A stretch of 36,322 bases of DNA from Oceanicaulis sp. GTDB lineage: Bacteria; Pseudomonadota; Alphaproteobacteria; Caulobacterales; Maricaulaceae. A model generated the notes under the pieces. That model ran no database searches. It saw nothing but the letters and a program-made list of their open reading frames with translations, and was not told the origin of the DNA. Positions within the stretch are counted from its first letter, which is position 1, and each line of letters begins with the position of its first letter. The translations under genes and the position numbers were made by a program. This document shows positions 8,394 through 24,007 of this stretch, one piece after another. Location: assembly GCA_022565365.1 (NCBI GenBank), contig JAIUMW010000007.1:1-36322 (forward strand), in the 5' to 3' direction.

Positions 8394-8464
8394 GGTTTAT
8401 GGTGCGGTTTGATATTGAGGCGATTCTCATCTGATCGATTCGCCCTGCGGCATTGAGGCGAGAT

Positions 8465-9583
8465 ATGAAGCTGATCATTGAACGTGCGGCCCTGCTCAAA
8501 GCGCTCGGACATGTCCAGGCCGTGGTGGAGCGCCGCAACACCATTCCGATCCTGTCCAATGTGCTGGTCAAGGCCGAAGAGGGGTTCGTGCGCTTCACCG
8601 CCACCGATCTCGATATGGAGATCGTGGAGGAGGCTGAGGCGCGCACCGAACGCCCCGGCACGGTCACCGCGCCCGCCCACACGCTTTATGAGATCGCGCG
8701 CAAGCTGCCCGAGGGCTCTCAGGTGACGCTGGAGCTGGGCGGGGAAGACCCGCGCATGACGCTGTCAGCGGGACGCTCGCGCTTCAACCTGCCGGTCCTG
8801 CCGCCGGGCGATTTCCCGGTCATGCCCAGCGAGGATCTGGCGGTCAGCTTCGCCTGTCCGGCGGGAGAGCTGGCGCGGCTGATCGACAAGACCCGCTTCG
8901 CCATCTCGACTGAAGAGACGCGCTACTATCTCAACGGCATCCACATGCACGCCGCCGAGCGCGATGGCCGCAAGACCCTGCGCGCCGTCGCCACGGACGG
9001 TCACCGCCTGGCGCTGGCCGAAACCGATTTGCCTGACGGGGCCGCAGGCATGCCAGCGGTGATCGTGCCGCGCAAGCCGATCCAGGAATTGCGCCGTCTG
9101 CTCGAAGACCTCGACGGCGACGTCAATGTGTCGGTGTCCGACGGCAAGATCCGCTTCCAGCTGGGCGCCGCGGTGCTGACGTCCAAGCTCATTGACGGGT
9201 CCTTCCCCGACTATGAGCGGGTCATTCCGCGCGGTAATGACAAGATTTTGCGCGTCGACCGCGCCCCGTTTGCCCAGGCCGTGGACCGGGTGGCCACCAT
9301 CAGCCAGGAGAAATCCCGCTCGGTGAAGCTCGCCCTGTCCGATGGCCAGCTGGTGCTGACGGTGAACAATCCCGAAAGCGGCGCGGCCAGCGAGGAATTG
9401 TCGGCTGACTACAGCGCCGAGGCGATCTCCATCGGCTTCAATGCGCGCTATCTCCTGGACGTGGCCGGCCAGATCGAGGGCGATGAGGCCGTGTTCGAGT
9501 TCGCCGATTCCGGTTCGCCCACCCGGGTGACGGATTCGGGCGATCCCGACGCCGAATATGTGCTGATGCCGCTGCGGGTGTGA
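8465..9583 (+). CDS. dnaN: DNA polymerase III subunit beta (sliding clamp)
   Basis: A 372-residue protein of normal length. The ring-shaped dimer tethers DNA polymerase III and other repair proteins to DNA. The N-terminus MKLIIERAALLKALGHVQAV and the segment VVERRNTIPILSNVLV match the family closely, followed by ATDLDMEI, ATDGHRLALAE, SFPDYERVIPRGND, and the conserved C-terminal YVLMPLRV. The start at ATG 8465 follows GAGGCGAGAT; an in-frame TTG at 8453 lacks support. It ends GTG-TGA, where recF begins on the overlapping GTG. Confidence 0.97.
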   Translation: MKLIIERAALLKALGHVQAVVERRNTIPILSNVLVKAEEGFVRFTATDLDMEIVEEAEARTERPGTVTAPAHTLYEIARKLPEGSQVTLELGGEDPRMTLSAGRSRFNLPVLPPGDFPVMPSEDLAVSFACPAGELARLIDKTRFAISTEETRYYLNGIHMHAAERDGRKTLRAVATDGHRLALAETDLPDGAAGMPAVIVPRKPIQELRRLLEDLDGDVNVSVSDGKIRFQLGAAVLTSKLIDGSFPDYERVIPRGNDKILRVDRAPFAQAVDRVATISQEKSRSVKLALSDGQLVLTVNNPESGAASEELSADYSAEAISIGFNARYLLDVAGQIEGDEAVFEFADSGSPTRVTDSGDPDAEYVLMPLRV

Positions 9584-10755
9584 TCGGCGCGCCCGGCCCC
9601 CATCCCGCAGCCGGCAGTCCGGCGGTCACCCGGCTGAAGCTGACCGGGTTTCGTAATTATTCCGCGCTTGATCTGACGCTGGATGCGCGCCCGGTGGCGC
9701 TGTTCGGCCCCAACGGGGCAGGCAAGACCAATCTGGTTGAAGCGGTCAGCTTTCTGGGTCCCGGGCGCGGCGTGCGCGCCGCCGGAGCCGACGCCGTGCG
9801 TATGAAGACGGCAGACGGCCCAACCCCCGTCTGGGCGGTCTATGCCGAGGCCATGACCCGCGACGGGGCGGTCAGTCTCGCCACCGGCTCCGACCCGTCA
9901 GACCCTGCCCGTCGGCGCACACGGCTGGACGGCGCGGCGGCGACCCAGGGCGAGCTGGCGCGGCTGGTTCCCATGGTCTGGCTGACCCCGCGCGAGGACC
10001 GGCTATGGGCCGGACCGCGGGCTGACCGGCTGAAATTCCTGGACCGTCTGGTGCTGGCTGGCGCGCCCGATCACGCCGCAGCGGCCACCGCCTATGACAA
10101 GGCCCAGCGCGAGCGCCAGCGATTGCTGGACCGTATGGAGGACGGGGTGCGCGTGGATCCGGCCTGGCTGGACGCGCTGGAAGCGGAGATGGCGCAGCAC
10201 GGCGTTGCGCTGGCGGCCGCGCGCCTTGATGCGCTGGCGCGTCTGCAGGCCGAGATCGACGCCCGGCCCGACAACGCCTTTCCCAAGGCCGATCTGGCGC
10301 TGGACGGGGTAGTGGAGGCGCGCCTGGCGCAAGGCATGAAGGCGGGTGAAGCCGAAGACTGGTTCGCCGCCAGCCTGCAATCTGCGAGGCGGCGCGACGG
10401 CGCGGCCGGACGCGCGCTGACCGGCCCCCACCGCACCGAGCTGGCCGCGCGCCACCGGAGCAAGGATCAGCCGGCGGCCGATTGCGCCACCGGCGAGCAG
10501 AAAGCGCTGGTCCTGGGACTGGCGCTGGCGCAGGCGGGCGCGGTGCGCCGCAGCCTGGGGGCGGCGCCGGTGCTGATTTTTGACGAAGCCTGCGCCCATC
10601 TGGACGCGGCCCGGCGCGAGGGCCTCGCCGAGGCGATCCTGGCGCTGGAGGCGCAGGCCTGGCTGACCGGGGTGGAGGCGTCGCTGTTCGCCGCCTTCGG
10701 CGCCGGCGCCCAGCATTACCGCATTGAAGCGGGCACGGCGCGAGAGGCCGGGTAG
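9580..10755 (+). CDS. recF: DNA replication/repair protein RecF
   Basis: A 391-residue SMC-like ATPase that helps load RecA at gapped DNA. Seen: VTRLKLTGFRNYSALDL, Walker A GPNGAGKTN (residues 43-51), PREDRLWAGPRADRLKFLDR, the ABC signature region with ATGEQKALVLG, and Walker B VLIFDEACAHLD. The start GTG 9580 overlaps the end of dnaN by four bases (GTGA), indicating coupled translation; dnaN–recF is a common pair. gyrB, often next, is not here; a minus-strand kinase gene follows instead. Confidence 0.94.
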   Translation: MIGAPGPHPAAGSPAVTRLKLTGFRNYSALDLTLDARPVALFGPNGAGKTNLVEAVSFLGPGRGVRAAGADAVRMKTADGPTPVWAVYAEAMTRDGAVSLATGSDPSDPARRRTRLDGAAATQGELARLVPMVWLTPREDRLWAGPRADRLKFLDRLVLAGAPDHAAAATAYDKAQRERQRLLDRMEDGVRVDPAWLDALEAEMAQHGVALAAARLDALARLQAEIDARPDNAFPKADLALDGVVEARLAQGMKAGEAEDWFAASLQSARRRDGAAGRALTGPHRTELAARHRSKDQPAADCATGEQKALVLGLALAQAGAVRRSLGAAPVLIFDEACAHLDAARREGLAEAILALEAQAWLTGVEASLFAAFGAGAQHYRIEAGTAREAG

Positions 10756-13430: not shown

Positions 13431-13505
13431 GCCAAGGCAGGTAAGGGCGCGGCGGGCCGGTGTCGAGGTGGTTTTTTCCACTTGCGCTGCGAATAAAAGG
13501 TGAAC

Positions 13506-14000
13506 ATGATGGCGGGCATGGCCTTGACCGACACCCAGGACAGCGCCGAGGCGCGCGCCCGTAACGCTTTGGCGCGGGCCGATAATCCGGCCATTGACGA
13601 CGCCCGCGCCCTGGCCCGGGGCGCGGCGCGCCTGCTGGCCGCTCTGGGGGTAGCGGCGATCGCGGAATTCACCCTGCCGTGCGGGCGCCGGGCCGATCTG
13701 GCCGGGCTGGGCCGCAAGGGCGAGATCGTGATCGTGGAGATCAAATCAGGCCCGGCCGATTTTCGCGCCGACGCCAAATATCCCGACTATTTCGCCTGGT
13801 GCGACCGGTTCTACTTCGCTGTATCTGAACGATTTCCAGCCTCGATCCTGCCTGAAGCCTGCGGGCTTGTCATCGCCGATCCCTTCGGCGGCGCGGTGGT
13901 GCGCGACAGCCCGGTCCACACCCTCGCCCCGGCCCGGCGCAAGGCCCTGACCCTGCGCTTCGCCCGCTGCGCAGCGGAAAGGGCGCTGCGCGCGCTTTAA
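13506..14000 (+). CDS. mmcB: MmcB family DNA repair protein
   Basis: A protein of 164 residues with a PD-(D/E)xK-like core: D64 in GRRADLAGLG, then E78 and K80 in IVIVEIKSG. These are followed by ADAKYPDYFAWCDRFYFAV and a conserved ADPFGG segment. This pattern matches MmcB, which in Caulobacter contributes to tolerance of mitomycin C and UV together with the ImuABC-type mutasome, though its exact activity is unsettled. The AAAAGG before 13501 points to ATG 13506; GTG 13500 and ATG 13509 are possible too. Confidence 0.87.
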   Translation: MMAGMALTDTQDSAEARARNALARADNPAIDDARALARGAARLLAALGVAAIAEFTLPCGRRADLAGLGRKGEIVIVEIKSGPADFRADAKYPDYFAWCDRFYFAVSERFPASILPEACGLVIADPFGGAVVRDSPVHTLAPARRKALTLRFARCAAERALRAL

Positions 14001-14277: not shown

Positions 14278-17200
14278 TCACGCCGCGCCCGGCAGGGGCA
14301 GTTCGATTTCGCCCATGATGCGGTGGGTCTCGCTGAGCACTTTGATGATGCGCTGGTAATGCTGGATGTCGGCGAAGGAGAGCGCGCGGCCCTTGCGGTC
14401 TTTCAGCCATTTCTGCGCCGGCTGGTAGCCGCCTATGTAGAATTGCCACGCAATCTCCGGCACGCCCTCAAAGCGCTGCCCGCCATTGATCCAGACCGAC
14501 CCGGCGTCGAAGTGCGGCTTGTCCACCACGCCGTCACACTCGCCCGTGAACGGGTAGGGCGCCGCGCCCACGGCGTCCGGCTCCATCAGGTGGAGGCGGC
14601 GCAGCGCCCCGCCCTTGTCGCTGACATGCCAGAACACGTCCGGCGAGGCGGGCCAGGGGATGCGCGGGAAGTCGGTTTTCAGAAACTCGGCGAAGGTCTC
14701 GCGGTAATCGGGGCTGTGCAGCACGCCATAGATGTAATCGAAAATCGCGATTTCATCGGGCTCGCCGCGGGCGGCGCCTTTGGCCAGCTCGCGAATCTTG
14801 CGCCAGATTTTCGGATCGAAATTGACCCGGCGGGTTTGATCGAGGGAGTCTTCTTCGGGGTAGAGGTAGAGGGGAGCGATATAATTTACCTCCTTCAATG
14901 ATAGAGAATGGTGCTGGATCATTTTGTCAAAAACAAAAACATCTGAATAGCCTCTATTTTGTTCAATTCTTTTATTAAATACGATTGATATGTTGTCCTT
15001 GTTGAGAACGCTCTTCATGAATTCGAATCTACCCCAATCCACCATATCTGGTCGATATAAAATCGCCCGCGTATCGAAAGGTCTATAATCGATAGCCGAG
15101 ATGTCAGAGCGCCACTCACTACCCTGAAGAGCAATCCGGGCCGCAGGCAACTTCCAGCATCTTGAATCCCCGGGTGGGTACTTGCCTGCCTTTTTACCCT
15201 GAAAAAACTCTGAGCGCACCTGAGCATCAGTTTTGCTCGGGTCAGCAAATTTTGCTATTTTATGTTCAAGATCTGGCCTATCCAAGCCAACAACCAAACT
15301 GTCTTTTGCAGTAACTATACCGGCTACGTAGGTTGGCATTAAATCCACTATCGAAAAGCTGCTTTCATATACCTCCATCAATCGATGATCACGCTCTCCG
15401 AACATGAATAAAGGCGCTGGTGTTTCAATGGATTTGAAAACCGCGCTCACTCTGCCTAAACTCGTCAGCGCGTCATACTTCTCATTACGGGTTCCCCACA
15501 GATCGCCGTGGAACACGCTGGCGAGCGGCTTGTCCTTACCCGCCTGCATCTTCTTCACGGCGATGATGATCGCCACGCCCTGCTGGATGTCGAACACGTT
15601 CTTGTCCGCCGAACCGTCGGGCGAGACTTCCTTCTTCTTGGCGTTGCCGTGCAGATCGAGCACGTAAATGGAATCAAACGTGTTCAGCAAATGCCAGCGC
15701 ATGCCCCGGAAGGTGGGGTTATCCAGATAGCCGTGATTGGTGATGAAGCCGAGCACGCCCTCGCCATTCTTTTCGATCATGTGCTCTGCGAAACGCAGGA
15801 ATTTCACATAATCATCGTGCAGCCAGTGCTTTCGTTCCCCGAAATGCTTTCCATCGACATATTTGTAATCGTCGATCAGCCCGCTGATCCAAGGCCCCAT
15901 ATTCTGCGAAATGCCCGAATAGGGCGGGTTGCCGATCACGCACATGATGGGCATGTCGCGCTTGATCTCATTGGCTCCCCTGGCTTCGTCCGACAGCCAT
16001 TGGGCGAATGGCAAAGGATGATTTATAGGATCACCCTCTTCCAGCGAGTTGGTGAGATAGACCGAAAAGCGCTTTTCCTTGCCGGTAGGCCGATAACCCA
16101 TATCGGTCAGGATCATGTCCAGCTTCATGTGGCACATGGCGTAGCTAGCCATCAAAAGCTCGAACCCGTGAATGCGCGGGATCAGCTCGGCCTCCACATA
16201 GGATGACCAGTGGCCGGGGGCGGAGGCCTTCACCCGATTTTCGATCTGCTTGATCACCTCGGCCAGAAACGTGCCGGTGCCGGTGGCGGGATCAAGAATC
16301 TGGACCCGGTGAACCTCGCGCTTTTCGGTGACGGGCTTGCTCTCCTTGTCCGTCTGGCCGGTGTCGAAATCGATGGTGATCTTTGAGGTGTCGGCCAGGC
16401 CATCGGGCAGGCCGAACTCGGTCTTGAGCACCTCGTCCACGGCGCGCACGATGAAATTGACCACGGGCTCTGGCGTGTACCAGACACCTCTGGCCTTGCG
16501 CTTGGCCGGGTTGTAGGCGGCCAGAAACGTTTCGTAGAAGTGCAGGAAGGGATCGTTCTGTCCGGTCAGCTGGCCGAAATCGGCCATGATCTCTGCAAGA
16601 TTGGACGCCAGAAATATCCGGGTAAGGCTGTCGATGAACCACTTTATCCGATCATCCAAGTCTGGCCCGGCGATATAGCTGAACAGCTTGCGCAGGAAGG
16701 GGTTGGATTTCGGCAGAAGCTCGAGCGCCTCTTGCCGGCTAAACGTGTCCAGCGTCTGGTCGTGCAAGCGCGCCGCGAACAGGCCGTAGGCGATTGTTTC
16801 AGCATAGATATCAGCAAAGTCCGCCGGTGTGATGTCATGTATTAGCACTTCCCGGAATGACTGAAATTGCGATACAAGTTCGGTGTTGGACTTCCGTTTC
16901 AGGTCCTCTACCAGCGCCCGGCCCATCACGTCCTTGATCAGCACCGCCTTGGCCGCCATCAGCTCGGCAAGACGTTTGGAGCTGGTGATGGTGCGCGGCG
17001 TCTGGGCGACGAAGTCTTTGAGCTGCGCCTCCAGAGCGCCAAATGTTTCGGGCTTCGGGTGCAGGCCCATCAGCATCTCGCCAATGGAAATGGAACGGAC
17101 CAGCTCAGCTTCTTTGTAGAACTCAAAGTCAATGCCGTTCGTATAAATCAGATTGGGCAAGGCTTTGAGATAGCGCTGCTTCTGCTCGACACTGTAGCCT

Positions 17201-17442
17201 TTGAGCGATTTCAGCTCGACACCGACATCCTTCGCCTCGCAATGACCGACCTCGACATCGCCGTCCATGAAAACAAAATCCGGCGCGCCAAATGAGCCGC
17301 GTTTCGGCTCGTTGATGAGCGTGATTTTTTCGCTGAGGCTGTTGAAAAGTTCATAGAGGGCCGGGCGGTAGCTGTGCTCGGTCGCCTGCCCGCCTCTGTA
17401 GGTGGCGGCAATGGCCTCGAAATAGGCGGCGATAAGGCTCAT
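14278..17442 (-). CDS. Single-chain restriction–modification enzyme (type IIG/ISP-like, no helicase)
   Basis: 1054 residues. The N-terminus carries a nuclease-like motif: D55 in GAPDFVFMDG and E69-A-K71 in GHCEAKD. A helical region follows (about 90-310), then a γ-type N6-adenine methylase: motif X GVWYTPEPVVNFIV (319-332), motif I ILDPATGTGTFL (382-393), and motif IV NPPY (505-508). The C-terminal ~450 residues resemble the specificity part of type ISP enzymes. There is no helicase block between nuclease and methylase, so it is closer to type IIG in plan. Bases ~14880-15480 (residues ~655-855) are much AT-richer than either side. A ribosome site GGGGG precedes ATG 17442. It stands alone between mmcB and the redox regulator gene, with no separate S or R subunit, which fits a self-contained mobile defence gene. 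Confidence 0.85.
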   Translation of the reverse strand: MSLIAAYFEAIAATYRGGQATEHSYRPALYELFNSLSEKITLINEPKRGSFGAPDFVFMDGDVEVGHCEAKDVGVELKSLKGYSVEQKQRYLKALPNLIYTNGIDFEFYKEAELVRSISIGEMLMGLHPKPETFGALEAQLKDFVAQTPRTITSSKRLAELMAAKAVLIKDVMGRALVEDLKRKSNTELVSQFQSFREVLIHDITPADFADIYAETIAYGLFAARLHDQTLDTFSRQEALELLPKSNPFLRKLFSYIAGPDLDDRIKWFIDSLTRIFLASNLAEIMADFGQLTGQNDPFLHFYETFLAAYNPAKRKARGVWYTPEPVVNFIVRAVDEVLKTEFGLPDGLADTSKITIDFDTGQTDKESKPVTEKREVHRVQILDPATGTGTFLAEVIKQIENRVKASAPGHWSSYVEAELIPRIHGFELLMASYAMCHMKLDMILTDMGYRPTGKEKRFSVYLTNSLEEGDPINHPLPFAQWLSDEARGANEIKRDMPIMCVIGNPPYSGISQNMGPWISGLIDDYKYVDGKHFGERKHWLHDDYVKFLRFAEHMIEKNGEGVLGFITNHGYLDNPTFRGMRWHLLNTFDSIYVLDLHGNAKKKEVSPDGSADKNVFDIQQGVAIIIAVKKMQAGKDKPLASVFHGDLWGTRNEKYDALTSLGRVSAVFKSIETPAPLFMFGERDHRLMEVYESSFSIVDLMPTYVAGIVTAKDSLVVGLDRPDLEHKIAKFADPSKTDAQVRSEFFQGKKAGKYPPGDSRCWKLPAARIALQGSEWRSDISAIDYRPFDTRAILYRPDMVDWGRFEFMKSVLNKDNISIVFNKRIEQNRGYSDVFVFDKMIQHHSLSLKEVNYIAPLYLYPEEDSLDQTRRVNFDPKIWRKIRELAKGAARGEPDEIAIFDYIYGVLHSPDYRETFAEFLKTDFPRIPWPASPDVFWHVSDKGGALRRLHLMEPDAVGAAPYPFTGECDGVVDKPHFDAGSVWINGGQRFEGVPEIAWQFYIGGYQPAQKWLKDRKGRALSFADIQHYQRIIKVLSETHRIMGEIELPLPGAA

Positions 17443-17525
17443 GCAGCGTCCCCCGGCAATGGCCGGGTCAGGCTAGCCGCATCTGCGACTTTCCGGCAAT
17501 CGGGCCGCGCATGGCGCGCGCCCCG

Positions 17526-18071
17526 CTATCTCGGCGCGCGCTTGGCCAGTATCCGCTGCAGGGTGCGGCGGTGCATGTTCAGGCGGCGGGCGGTTTCGGA
17601 GACATTGTGATTGCACAGCTCGAACACGCGCTGGATATGCTCCCAGCGCACGCGGTCGGCGCTCATCGGGTTTTCCGGCGGTTCGGGCTTGGCGTCGGGC
17701 AGGGCCAGCAGCGCCTTGACCACATCGTCGGCGTCGGCGGGTTTGGACAGATAGTCCACCGCCCCCGATTTCACCGCCGCCACGGCGGTGGCGATATTGC
17801 CATAGCCGGTGAGCATCACCACGCGGCAGTCGGGGCGCTCGGCATAGAGCGTGCGCACCACATCCAGCCCGTCGCCATCCTCCAGGCGCAGATCCACCAC
17901 GGCGAAAGCGGGCGGGGCGCTGCGGGCGCGGGCCTTGGCCTCGGCGACGGAGGCCACCGCCGTCACGTCGAACCCGCGCGCGGTCATGGCGCGGCTCAGC
18001 CGGTTGAGGAAGGGCGCGTCGTCATCGACGAGCAGCAAAGTGGCGTCGTCCGGCAATACCAGATCGGACAT
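17526..18071 (-). CDS. actR: Redox response regulator of the RegA/ActR/PrrA family
   Basis: 181 residues, normal for the family. The receiver domain has the acidic pocket D16-D18 in LLLVDDDAPFL, phospho-acceptor D60 in VVDLRLEDGDG, and the conserved T and K (LTGYGN, LSKPADADD). A Pro-rich linker follows, then the C-terminal Fis-type helix-turn-helix (VSETARRLNMHRRTLQRIL). RegA-type regulators control respiration, carbon and nitrogen fixation genes under low oxygen. The start at 18071 gives the family N-terminus; the upstream open frame (to 18245) is not conserved. It lies 115 bases downstream of its kinase gene on the same strand. Confidence 0.92.
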   Translation of the reverse strand: MSDLVLPDDATLLLVDDDAPFLNRLSRAMTARGFDVTAVASVAEAKARARSAPPAFAVVDLRLEDGDGLDVVRTLYAERPDCRVVMLTGYGNIATAVAAVKSGAVDYLSKPADADDVVKALLALPDAKPEPPENPMSADRVRWEHIQRVFELCNHNVSETARRLNMHRRTLQRILAKRAPR

Positions 18072-18186
18072 GGCGTGTGAGTCTCCGGTCAAAACACAGA
18101 TGTTGTGACCCATAACTAGACGATGCGCACCCGATTTCGAAGGCTTGAGGGTGAAAACGCCGCATGACGCGCGCCGCGCACGAGAC

Positions 18187-19524
18187 TCAGTCCTCGCTCT
18201 CCAGACCGCTGCGCGGCACGGTGATCTCCACCCGCGCGCCGCCACCGGGCGCGTTGGACAAGGTCACCTTGCCGTGCACGCGCTGGGTCAGGGTCATGGC
18301 GATGAACACGCCCAGCCCCAGCCCGCCATGACCCGGCTCGGCGCGTCTTGTGGTGACATACGGCTCGCCCAGCTTGGCCAGAATGTCCGGCGGAAAGCCC
18401 GGCCCGTCATCCTCCACGGTGAAGGTGACATGGCGCGCGGTCCAGGCGCCGGTGACGATGACGCGGGTCTCAGCGAAATCCACCGCGTTCTCGATGAAGT
18501 TTCCCAGCGCATAGATCAGCTCCACCCGGCGGCGCAGCACCGGCGCGCGCGCCTCGTCCACGGGGGCGGACAGGCGCACCGAGATGGGCGCGCCCACGCC
18601 CTGCAACGGCGCGGCGGCCTCCTCCATGGCTTCACTCAGACCCACCCGGTCATGCATGCGGTCGCCCGCATCGCGCATCTGGGACAGGCGCTGGAGAATT
18701 TCGCGGCAGCGCCGGGCCTGGGACACCAGCAGCTCGGCGTCTTCTTTCAGGTCCGGGTCGGTGGCGGCGCGCAGCATTTCCTTGGCGGTGAGCTGGATGG
18801 TCGCCAATGGCGTGCCCAGCTCATGGGCGGCGGCGGCGGCCAGGGCGCCCAGCGCCGACAGGCGTTGCTCACGCGCCAGCACGCCTTGCGTGGCGGCCAG
18901 CGCCGCGCCCATGCGCCGCGCCTCGCCCGCCACGCGCCAGGCATAGATGGCGGTGAACGCGATGGCGATCACCAGCGCCAGACCTGTGGCGGCCATGTAG
19001 AGCGGCGGCAGGGCGAACGCCTCTCCGGGAATCCAGGGCATGGGCAGATGCCAGACCCCCAGGGCCGTGGCGCCCGCCAGCGCCAGCGCGCCCAGCGCCA
19101 GCCACCAGCGCGGCGGCAGGGCCGCCACCGAGATCACCACCGGCCCCACAATCATCACCGCAAACGGATTGGACAGCCCGCCGGTGAGCGCCAGCAGCGC
19201 CATCAGCTGAATGAGGTCAAAGGCCAGCTGGGCGAACGCCTCGCCGTCGCGCGCCAGGCGCTGGGTGGAGACAAAGACCGGCAACAGGGCGTTGAGCGCA
19301 GCGCTGGCGGCGATCAGGGCGAAACAGGCCGCCAGCGGCAGTGCGAAGCCCAGCCCGAAATACACGCCCAGCACGGTGGCCGTCTGGCCCGCCACCGCCA
19401 GCCAGCGCAGGAAGATCAGCGTACGCAGGCGCACCTTGCCGAACACCGGCGCCAGATCGCCGCCATCCAAAGGATCGTCCGGCGCGCCGATGGCGCCGCG
19501 GGCGGGGCTGAAACGGTCAGTCAT
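18187..19524 (-). CDS. actS: Redox sensor histidine kinase of the RegB/ActS/PrrB family
   Basis: 445 residues: six probable membrane helices (about 35-200), with the quinone-site motif GGLSNPF at 115-121 between helices 3 and 4. The H-box AAAHELGTPLATI follows with phospho-acceptor H234, then Cys273 in RRCREIL, which matches the redox-active cysteine region of RegB, then ATPase boxes (NFIENAVDFA, DDGPGFP, GGLGLGVFIA). The kinase senses the quinone pool and phosphorylates the neighbouring regulator. The gene order senC / regB / regA, with senC divergent, is the classical alphaproteobacterial arrangement. Confidence 0.94.
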   Translation of the reverse strand: MTDRFSPARGAIGAPDDPLDGGDLAPVFGKVRLRTLIFLRWLAVAGQTATVLGVYFGLGFALPLAACFALIAASAALNALLPVFVSTQRLARDGEAFAQLAFDLIQLMALLALTGGLSNPFAVMIVGPVVISVAALPPRWWLALGALALAGATALGVWHLPMPWIPGEAFALPPLYMAATGLALVIAIAFTAIYAWRVAGEARRMGAALAATQGVLAREQRLSALGALAAAAAHELGTPLATIQLTAKEMLRAATDPDLKEDAELLVSQARRCREILQRLSQMRDAGDRMHDRVGLSEAMEEAAAPLQGVGAPISVRLSAPVDEARAPVLRRRVELIYALGNFIENAVDFAETRVIVTGAWTARHVTFTVEDDGPGFPPDILAKLGEPYVTTRRAEPGHGGLGLGVFIAMTLTQRVHGKVTLSNAPGGGARVEITVPRSGLESED

Positions 19525-22139: not shown

Positions 22140-23906
22140 TCACCCGATCTGAAACCGCCGCCGCAGAGCCAGCGCGGTGAGGAAAATGAGGATGAGGGAG
22201 ATCAGCCGTTGGGTCATGCGAAGGAACGCGAATAGCGCGCTCTGCCAGCTTTCCTGTTTCGATAGGTCCTTCGCCCAAGTGTGATGCCCCATCGGGTCGG
22301 ACACCGGGATGAAGCCGAGCTCGATGGCGAAGAGGAGGGGGCCTTTGGTCGTTGCTTCGGCGATCCGGCTCGCGCTCGCATTGGCCAGTGCGTTCAGCCG
22401 CTGCGACGGCCCATCCACGACCTGCGCCAAGATCAAGTCCTGCGCCGCCGGGACCTCCAAGTAATAGTGACCGGGCGCAATGGCCACCCTGACCGACTGC
22501 GATGCACCGGCCGGATCAAGCAAGCTAGCGGAGCGGGCGAGGCCGAAATAGGCTGTCGCACACAGCGCCCTGGTCACCACCAGGCATCCCAGCGGACGCG
22601 ATACCGACAGGCCATAATCGGCCAACCAACCGAACAGGCGAGAGGACACGCGCTCCGACCAATGCGTGGTCGATTGCAGGCGACGGGCGATCAGCTCGAA
22701 CCGATAGAAGCGCTGCTCGCGTAAAGGGTCTGAGGCCAAGCGCATCTGGTGTTTGAGAACTTGCGCGCCGTGTTCGACGGCCTTGAATGCCTCGTCGCGC
22801 TCAGTCTGTCCTTTCAGTGAAGTGATTGGCGCAATAACCTCATGGTCAAAAATATTTAAAGCATCGCCCTCTCCTAATTTTGGGAAATGAATACCAACAT
22901 CTAATCGCGCACCATCAAACATTGATATCAGCTTGTACGGACTTTTGCTAAAGTCAACAAAATCTTCGAACAGAGTTTTTTTGAATGCACCGCGCCAGAA
23001 AACTTCATTTTCGCTAAATTCTATTTTTGAAAACTCACAATTCGAATTGAAAACTGCTCGCTCAAAAATGCAGTTCCCCTGAAAAAGAACTTTTTGAAAT
23101 AATACGGAGTAAACAAATCTCGCCATGCTAAAATTAGTAGATTTGTAAAATCTAACCTTATTAAATCTTGTCGATCCGCTGAACATTACATTCGTAAAAT
23201 TAGCGCTTCCAAAGAAACAGGACCCTTCGAAGTTAACATAACCACCGAAACGCGCATTCTGAAATTCAGCCCCCGGGCCAAAGCTTCGCTCTTTATAGTC
23301 CACATGCATTAAATGCGCAGAATAGTTAAGACAAACATGCAATTGATTTGCGCTTTCATCCAAAATTGGGAGCTCTTCACATAAAACGGCCCCATTTAAT
23401 TGCGCGCGGAAGTCGATTTCCGAAACGCTCCCACTTTCATTTACTACCGTTTCAGATGCTGCTATTAATCTTTTTCTAATAATTAAATCAACTAATTTCC
23501 ATTTATCATGTGAGTAGTTTGATTTCCATTCAATTTCCTCGCCGTCTACATCATAGCTGGGCTGATGAATAATATGCCAATGCTCACCCTCTATGTTTTC
23601 CGAAGTCAGCTCACCTGAAATCCGAAGCTCATCATCGCTGCGTAGCATCCAGTTTTTCTCTGGGTCTGCCCGCCAGTAGTCTTGCAGGCTGGCTGGACGA
23701 TTCTTGATATTATTTGGCGCCTCACGCGCAACAGCACAGTAATGTCCTCCAGAATGCTCAACTACTACCCAACCTTGCCACGGCTTCTCCGGAGCACCAT
23801 CCGCATTAAGCTTGCCTAGGCCGTTCCAAGAAAAATCCTCCGAGTACCAGTTCAACCACCACAAGAGCGTATCAGCTTCGGCATCAAAGGTTCTAACTTC
23901 ACGCAT
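22140..23906 (-). CDS. Membrane-anchored pentapeptide-repeat protein, mosaic composition
   Basis: 588 residues from ATG 23906 (GGGGAG eight bases before; a TTG at 23924 would add six). Residues 1-190 form an unrecognised, Trp-rich domain (DTLLWWLNWYSEDFSWNG). About 190-330 are degenerate pentapeptide repeats, A/CxF-type, for example AEFQNARFGGYVNFEGSCFF and SANFTNVMFSGSTRFNKVRF, which fold as a right-handed square helix. The C-terminal ~200 residues contain a hydrophobic segment (GCLVVTRALCATAYFGLA) and a final membrane helix (LISLILIFLTALAL). Bases ~22805-23900 are much AT-richer than the genome, while 22140-22800 are GC-rich. Function unknown; such proteins can be membrane-linked effectors or scaffolds. 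Convergent with phaZ, 25 bases apart. Confidence 0.8.
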   Translation of the reverse strand: MREVRTFDAEADTLLWWLNWYSEDFSWNGLGKLNADGAPEKPWQGWVVVEHSGGHYCAVAREAPNNIKNRPASLQDYWRADPEKNWMLRSDDELRISGELTSENIEGEHWHIIHQPSYDVDGEEIEWKSNYSHDKWKLVDLIIRKRLIAASETVVNESGSVSEIDFRAQLNGAVLCEELPILDESANQLHVCLNYSAHLMHVDYKERSFGPGAEFQNARFGGYVNFEGSCFFGSANFTNVMFSGSTRFNKVRFYKSTNFSMARFVYSVLFQKVLFQGNCIFERAVFNSNCEFSKIEFSENEVFWRGAFKKTLFEDFVDFSKSPYKLISMFDGARLDVGIHFPKLGEGDALNIFDHEVIAPITSLKGQTERDEAFKAVEHGAQVLKHQMRLASDPLREQRFYRFELIARRLQSTTHWSERVSSRLFGWLADYGLSVSRPLGCLVVTRALCATAYFGLARSASLLDPAGASQSVRVAIAPGHYYLEVPAAQDLILAQVVDGPSQRLNALANASASRIAEATTKGPLLFAIELGFIPVSDPMGHHTWAKDLSKQESWQSALFAFLRMTQRLISLILIFLTALALRRRFQIG

Positions 23907-23975
23907 CACGCCTGCTCCCCACAACCTTCACCCGTCAGGAGAGCCGGACTCGCGTGCACGTGCAAGCGGGAACGC

Positions 23976-24007
23976 AAAACGCCCGCCTGGCGGTGGCCAG
24001 ACGGGCG
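23976..24007 (-). terminator. Rho-independent terminator after the lipoprotein gene
   Basis: On the minus strand, CGCCCGTCTGGC, loop CACC, GCCAGGCGGGCG, then TTTTGCG: a 12-bp stem with one mismatch and a short T-run, about 40 bases past the stop of the gene at 24050-25654. Good intrinsic terminator for that gene. Confidence 0.85.

Follow-up and report, generated by a model that had tools for sequence, protein, structure and literature searches.

Does an AT-rich patch within a restriction–modification gene record the replacement of its DNA-recognition module? This question is raised by a gene on a 36,322-nucleotide stretch of DNA from Oceanicaulis sp. (the window), in which a first-pass annotation had noted such a patch at positions 14880–15480 and had proposed that recombination swapped a recognition module into a resident enzyme. 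We addressed it by determining the class of the enzyme and by comparing base composition, identity, phylogeny, and genomic context of the gene among its homologs.

Domain organization and enzyme class

The gene encodes nuclease, methylase, target-recognition domain (TRD), and guide in one chain (Table 1). The Pfam families matched were N6_Mtase, Eco57I, and the Type ISP C-terminal specificity domain (PF18135, 1.2e-83; PF02384, 1.2e-12), the last of which (Type_ISP_C) covers residues 700–1044 with 281.5 bits. None of the four Pfam matches with E up to 1 was to a helicase family, and the SF2 helicase-like ATPase by which Type ISP enzymes are defined was thus not detected with Pfam. The top PADLOC model was REase_MTase_IIG (Type IIG restriction enzyme–methyltransferase; 3e-290). 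A profile of 57 relatives matched DrdV (7lo5; 1.6e-66), LlaBIII (6.3e-65), and LlaGI (7e-59) in the PDB, with alignments to LlaBIII and LlaGI that were significant only over the coupler–methylase–TRD part. PMC11842806 describes 7LO5 as DrdV, a Type IIL enzyme, and the table of fold matches names it likewise.

Table 1. Positions of the enzyme gene, its parts, and its flanks in the window.
Feature	Position	Strand	Remark
Single-chain restriction–modification enzyme, 1054 aa	14278..17442	-	Nuclease, helical connector, gamma N6-adenine methylase, TRD, guide
PD-(D/E)xK nuclease core, P54-D55 ... E69-A70-K71	17230..17283	-	Conservation and fold match
Methylase motif I DPATGTG, residues 384-390	16273..16293	-	
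Methylase motif IV NPPY, residues 505-508	15919..15930	-	
Segment 1, putatively exchanged, residues 510-543	15814..15915	-	Predicted counterpart of LlaGI loops I-II
Retained island, residues 544-649	15496..15813	-	Includes predicted loop III (about 598-617)
Segment 2, putatively exchanged, residues 650-857	14872..15495	-	TRD core and jaw (predicted loops IV-VI); contains the AT-rich patch
Retained C-terminal part, residues 858-1054	14278..14871	-	Counterpart of the ISP 'guide'
Left flank, mmcB-like gene	13500..14000	+	dnaN/recF further left, 8453-10755
Right flank	17511..19524		ORF 17511-18080 (+); histidine kinase (HK2) 18187-19524 (-)

In the nuclease core, D55 was invariant among the 57 sequences, and P54, E69, and K71 were nearly invariant. 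Residues 1–149 of a structural model superposed on the DrdV nuclease (7lvv_C) with a Z-score of 17.1 and a root mean square deviation of 2.0 over 133. The model as a whole (mean pLDDT, 76.5) had a pTM of 0.39, a poorly modeled methylase core, and whole-chain fold fits with deviations of 14–37; therefore, we relied on it solely to judge the nuclease fold and overall class, and not to locate exchanged pieces in space. The N-terminal PD-(D/E)xK nuclease, together with a gamma-class N6-adenine methylase (motif I and NPPY) and a TRD in the same chain and with no ATP-dependent helicase family found, corresponds to the definition of single-chain Type IIG/IIL enzymes. On the basis of its sequence, we thus assign the enzyme to the single-chain Type IIG/IIL class, with no helicase and with a specificity domain of Type ISP. 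Members of this class cleave outside an asymmetric site and shield host DNA by methylation, on one strand in Type IIL, and the window enzyme would be expected to do the same. Two other assignments were rejected: the MmeI_Mtase Pfam score was 20.1 of 27 bits, below the gathering cut-off for the MmeI subfamily, and scores for BREX PglX were 12.8 of 400, 12.1 of 500, and 11.8 of 900 bits (NF033451, NF033452, and NF033455, respectively). Conservation of its nuclease residues and methylase motifs makes it likely that the enzyme is active.

Base composition of the patch and of TRDs across the family

The GC content of the patch was 0.434, compared with 0.556 for the whole gene and 0.670 for the remainder of the window; relative to 601-bp windows taken from beyond the gene, z was -4.4. 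GC content at third codon positions (GC3) was also low, and a two-breakpoint fit along the gene placed the low-GC3 segment at residues 661–856 (nt 14875–15462), with values of 0.429 inside and 0.779 outside (2lnL, 87.7; maximum of 21.0 in 60 codon-order shuffles). The patch is therefore real; its annotated limits agree with the GC3 change-points to within about 20 bp, and it sits within the TRD core and jaw, where the TRD had been expected. The annotation had also described the methylase and nuclease parts as host-like, which holds only for the C-terminal part (GC, 0.643; GC3, 0.848). The methylase and nuclease parts are intermediate (GC, 0.56–0.59; GC3, 0.73–0.79), the seven neighboring genes having GC of 0.64–0.73 and GC3 of 0.73–0.88. 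Likewise, the patch is downstream of NPPY, as had been stated, but begins about 150 residues beyond it rather than directly after it. Elsewhere in the window, positions 22502–23999 are more AT-rich than the patch (601-bp GC falls to 0.369) and coincide with an open reading frame on the reverse strand (22140–23924) that matches a pentapeptide repeat (PF13576, 9e-11).

To place the patch in the context of the enzyme family, we searched genome contigs for the enzyme and kept the best 80 of 149 loci. Among 103 open reading frames matching the query, 7 scoring under 700 bits and 5 duplicates were removed, resulting in an alignment of 91 sequences. Counts over 85 leave out the truncated rows L018, L044, L067, L076, L077, and L079, and counts over 79 omit the 12 of 91 sequences with too little flank. 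In the alignment of 91, the TRD was the least conserved long stretch, and the mean GC3 deficit of residues 661–860 relative to each gene's own mean was 0.12–0.18 per 20-residue window. Among other poorly conserved stretches, residues 121–140, 181–200, and 881–900 had no such deficit, and residues 1–20 had one of 0.075. TRD GC3 was lower than that of residues 21–440 in 77 of 79 genes. After control for amino acids, the observed value was 0.50 against an expected 0.705, and 83 of 85 homologs fell below expectation. The slope of GC3 on host GC was 0.60 ± 0.18 for the TRD and 1.09 ± 0.13 for the backbone, a weaker dependence such as a shared sequence pool would give. The two hosts of lowest GC (L114 and L072) had a large deficit, but it was nearly gone in three other low-GC hosts, L030, L045, and L010 (0.02, 0.04, and -0.02, respectively). 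AT-richness thus characterizes the TRD throughout the family, and TRD GC3 tracks host GC less closely than backbone GC3 does. Because nearly all homologs share this AT-richness, composition alone does not establish a swap in this one gene, and the argument from AT-richness in the first-pass annotation was insufficient.

Identity breaks and phylogenetic conflict

We compared the enzyme in 40-residue windows with its close relatives, namely two from the same genus (L083, from genome G010; L001, whose protein equals that of G006) and one from the same family (L089, from G023), and with more distant relatives from Haliea (L002), Minwuia (L003), Porphyrobacter (L005), and Sphingomonas (L006); the L091 column, taken from the wrong strand of that locus, was not used. 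Identity to the three close relatives was 77–97% for window starts 541–601, 17–45% for starts 661–801, and 77–95% at 861. In this check, which the annotation had put forward, similarity falls sharply at the patch edges, and it recovers at residue 857. The four distant relatives reached 52–75% in windows starting at 721–781, were little or no better than congeners at start 661, and gave 22–52% at residues 821–860 (L002 and L003, 22%), where L083 and L001 gave 75 and 65%, respectively. Over the whole of segment 2, amino acid identity was 0.41, 0.35, and 0.30 to L083, L001, and L089, respectively.

The codon alignment breaks at GDLWG (about residue 650) and at PLYLYP (857). Across the latter, all 18 compared residues at 841–860 are the same as in L083, yet just 5 codons match; at residues 861–880, 17 of 19 codons agree. 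The retained C-terminal part resembles that of L083 at both levels (residues 861–1040; amino acid identity, 0.93; synonymous identity, 0.86). Toward the N-terminus, identity to L083 was 0.80 (synonymous, 0.64) for residues 21–340 and 0.85 (synonymous, 0.86) for residues 341–500. The first 300 residues or so (16540–17442) are thus less like those of the congeners than is the middle of the chain, a hint that another mosaic boundary may lie around residue 300.

Quick trees were built from 34 of the 85 rows, chosen by us. In the backbone tree (residues 21–340), the window enzyme grouped with L083, L001, and L089 (SH-aLRT, 96.8), a group that was rejected by the TRD data (residues 661–850; lnL difference, 168.8; p-AU, 4.8e-5). 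The TRD tree contained many long branches and joined the window enzyme weakly (81) to L083. Considering this join and the congener match at residues 821–860, the window enzyme and a congener may have a portion of the TRD in common, and the TRD patch may, as far as these alignments indicate, derive from more than one donor. The gene thus combines the similarity break, conserved flanks, and tree conflict by which a TRD exchange is recognized. Together with the presence of the gene at the same locus in a congener, the identity breaks and tree conflict uphold the proposal that recombination swapped a recognition module into a resident enzyme.

Searches for the donor returned no close sequence. The nearest TRD among the 85 sequences was 49% identical. 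Of 385 genomes of the class, 17 contained a match to the patch, including the window's own, and the best of the others reached 38% identity over a portion of it. Among 26 plasmid records, the best match was 36%, and none of 8 pattern hits in viral contigs was confirmed. None of these sequences was close enough to display the exchange event directly. A silent cassette or phase-variable inversion was rejected, as the patch matched only itself in its own genome and no repeats were found at its edges with the settings used.

A second divergent piece and the DNA-reading loops

The swap as first proposed was incomplete in extent, since two pieces differ from the congeners: the TRD piece and residues 510–543. 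The latter (segment 1) begins at S509–G510, directly behind NPPY, and its amino acid identity to L083, L001, and L089 was 0.42–0.47; L002–L006 reached 75–87% in the windows covering it (501–540 and 521–560). Five other hosts (L002, L003, L005, L006, and L014) pair this loop type with the same TRD class. The block between the two pieces kept the ancestry of the genus: identity to L083 at residues 545–640 was 0.93, and synonymous codon identity was 0.84, compared with 0.45 for random pairs.

DNA-reading elements of LlaGI, as given by Kulkarni et al. (2016; PMC4872093), are loop I (1017–1027), loop II (1053–1062), loop III (1115–1138), loops IV–VI, and TRD helix H. When these were carried over by hand alignment, loop I corresponded to the NPPY loop (504–514) and loop II to about residues 538–543. 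By this alignment, loops I–II would lie in or at the edge of segment 1, loops IV–VI in segment 2, and loop III in the retained island. The equivalents of LlaGI Q1118 and K1131 would be A601 and N615. Residue 615 is Asn in 85 of 85 sequences, which is the residue of ISP enzymes that do not read the -1 base, and column 601 comprises Ala (40), Ser (30), and Thr (10) among the 85; Ala is consistent with no reading of this base, whereas Ser and Thr are small yet polar. The conserved Asn weakly suggests that loop III would not need to change with the other loops.

Covariation and close pairs across the family

Across the 85 full-length sequences, backbone and TRD identity were nearly uncorrelated (r = 0.13), which points to exchange among relatives so frequent that the descent of the recognition part has become separated from that of the remaining enzyme. 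Coupling of other regions to the TRD was calculated as partial r with the backbone controlled, using 500 permutations that did not keep the tree and thus overstate independence. No coupling was found for residues 341–440 (-0.051), 445–500 (0.009), and 861–900 (-0.047), and coupling was evident for residues 510–543 (0.327), 545–585 (0.255), and 586–640 (0.212), each with 0 of 500 permutations. Accordingly, coupling is absent up to residue 500, begins at NPPY, and is absent from 861. Of the 501 columns examined in residues 1–650, the 30 with the strongest coupling were all located in 510–646, the top three being 511, 529, and 538. By our count, 12 of the 30 were in segments tested as loops I–III, including 8 in the loop II segment (533–543). 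Loop III had a lower partial r (0.180; 1 of 500 permutations) than loop II (0.303; 0 of 500), and this family-wide coupling indicates that loop III is not exempt in general.

We also compared 25 non-overlapping pairs whose backbones had an identity of 0.80 or more; these pairs have no sequence in common but are not independent on the tree. TRD identity was less than 0.5 in 23 pairs, the exceptions being L019/L020 and L051/L045, and a separate dip at residues 510–543 was found in 14 of these 23. Twelve of the 23 had synonymous identity of at least 0.65 at residues 21–340; we classified them as TRD-only (three pairs), whole-tract 510–857 (eight pairs, including the ambiguous L094/L078), and two-piece (one pair, L001/L083). 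L091/L007 is an example of a change confined to the TRD, and L052/L043 of one over the whole tract. The two-piece state is therefore most evident within the genus of the window enzyme and is not the most frequent form of exchange; from these sequences, it may be special to the genus or a trace of successive events.

Genomic context and distribution in the genus

Six of 15 genomes of the genus contained any match to the enzyme, three of them near full length, including the window's own. In G010, the gene is in the same order as in the window, with about 5 kb extra on the kinase side, and in G006 it is located beside mmcB, the right flank being an inverted block. G011 has just a C-terminal remnant at the same locus (L141, 9647–9790), with mmcB and the right-side genes kept. 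In eight other congeners (G001, G003, G004, G008, G009, G012, G013, and G014; L146–L154), the interval between mmcB and the kinase ranges from 1.5 to 33 kb and contains differing open frames. Hence, the mmcB–HK2 interval looks like a variable site. At the threshold used, the window's neighbors were not found within the 8–20 kb fetched around the gene in G023, G024, G093, and G078.

Other degraded copies include a C-terminal stub in G027 (L142, 10031–10255) and a locus in G047 (L143, 10027–10613) where a match to the first 150 residues adjoins a match to residues 1000–1050, as after internal deletion. The G024 copy (L095 and L107; G024:C1:2568633-2571775) is 82% identical over residues 1–577 and 66% over 575–1053, with stops in the second piece, and has probably decayed.

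Origin of the mosaic

We consider it highly probable that homologous recombination replaced the specificity-bearing segments of a resident, helicase-less Type IIG/IIL enzyme with those of unrelated alleles from its own family. A history without recombination, in which diversifying selection drives fast change in the TRD and amino acid composition or relaxed codon use accounts for its AT-richness, would fit the rank of the TRD as the least conserved long stretch, the AT-rich TRDs of the two lowest-GC hosts, and the GC3 deficit of the poorly conserved residues 1–20. Such a history is very unlikely given that three other poorly conserved stretches have no deficit, that TRD GC3 remains far below expectation with amino acids controlled, and that the AU test rejects the backbone grouping; moreover, distant bacteria are closer than congeners in mid-patch, and synonymous codons shift abruptly at 857 though residues 841–856 are nearly identical. 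Recent acquisition of the entire gene as a unit, its mosaic having been built elsewhere, could explain the low GC of the gene relative to the rest of the window and its patchy presence in the genus. The shared site between mmcB and the 17511 ORF–HK2 pair in G010, the position beside mmcB in G006, and the remnant in G011 speak for residence instead, as do a backbone closest to congeners and G023 and the high synonymous identity of residues 861–1040 to G010, and we regard acquisition as a whole as unlikely. That reads of another strain's allele were joined into the contig is a concern in a genome of 419 contigs with 4.5% contamination. Such a chimera is hard to credit, since the frame is kept and the breaks are at family-conserved motifs, the loop type and TRD class are found together in five other hosts, and G010 and G078, both on single contigs, break likewise against their own close relatives; even then, the exchanged version would still be an allele of the population.

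The breaks lie in coding blocks of strong conservation, namely NPPYSG, DDYVKF, GDLWG, and PLYLYP, and as a result the frame stays open and the scaffold of nuclease, methylase, and guide is preserved. As judged from LlaGI and LlaBIII, the two pieces would hold DNA-reading loops I–II and IV–VI, and their exchange would lead to methylation and cutting of a different short asymmetric sequence; we thus infer a changed DNA target. A swap of this kind would be viable because a single recognition unit serves both methylase and nuclease, whose targets would shift in step. A broader reading seems possible to us, if rather doubtful: specificity would be a discontinuous exchangeable cassette, in which loops I–II and the TRD core and jaw form a co-selected matched pair, shuffled across classes (perhaps phyla) over a fixed scaffold and without loop III, since the clade would ignore the -1 base. 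The cassette would circulate as an AT-biased pool that only partly adopts host codon usage. The family-wide coupling of loop III, the frequent Ser or Thr at 601, and the weak AT bias in some low-GC hosts lower its odds.

Comparison with known systems and implications

DrdV (7LO5/7LVV), the best PDB match by both sequence profile and fold, is likewise a single chain (1029 aa) with nuclease, connector, gamma methylase, TRD, and C-terminal part, but shows only about 20% identity to the window enzyme. LlaGI and LlaBIII (Type ISP; 5FFJ and 4XQK) share the homologous methylase–TRD unit, PF18135, and, by the hand-carried alignment, the loop positions; unlike the window enzyme, in which none was found, they have their own SF2 helicase-like ATPase. 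Members of the MmeI family (Type IIL) have the same domain order, and methylase residues add minor-groove contacts, according to PMC4833311; they differ from the window enzyme, whose specificity domain is Type_ISP_C and whose MmeI_Mtase match is below cut-off.

Recognition-domain exchange has precedents in Type I and Type III systems and in a Type IIG system whose S subunit is separate, and domain movement and TRD exchange in Type I and IIG S subunits have been described in H. pylori (PMC3077401 and PMC3983042). There, too, recognition sequences move between alleles while the scaffold stays, but the S subunit is separate and contains two TRDs flanked by repeats, whereas the window enzyme is a single chain with one TRD and a second piece within the methylase domain. 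Movement of this type (DoMo) was rejected for the window enzyme, given that no flanking repeats were found at the patch edges with the settings used and no silent cassette in its own genome. Among the titles and opening lines of abstracts listed from the open-licence literature, no paper on exchange in the single-chain class was found. TRD exchange is thus a known process, and what is new is its two-piece form in a single-chain ISP-like Type IIG/IIL clade.

These results caution against taking an AT-rich patch in a gene of this kind as proof of a recent event, since recognition domains are AT-rich as a rule. They also provide natural, sequence-defined boundaries for retargeting single-chain restriction–modification enzymes, and suggest that transfer of the TRD alone may not suffice where the matching methylase loops differ. 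In 23 of the 25 natural pairs examined, nearly the same scaffold bears different recognition parts, and methylome sequencing of such pairs could allow a recognition code to be read.
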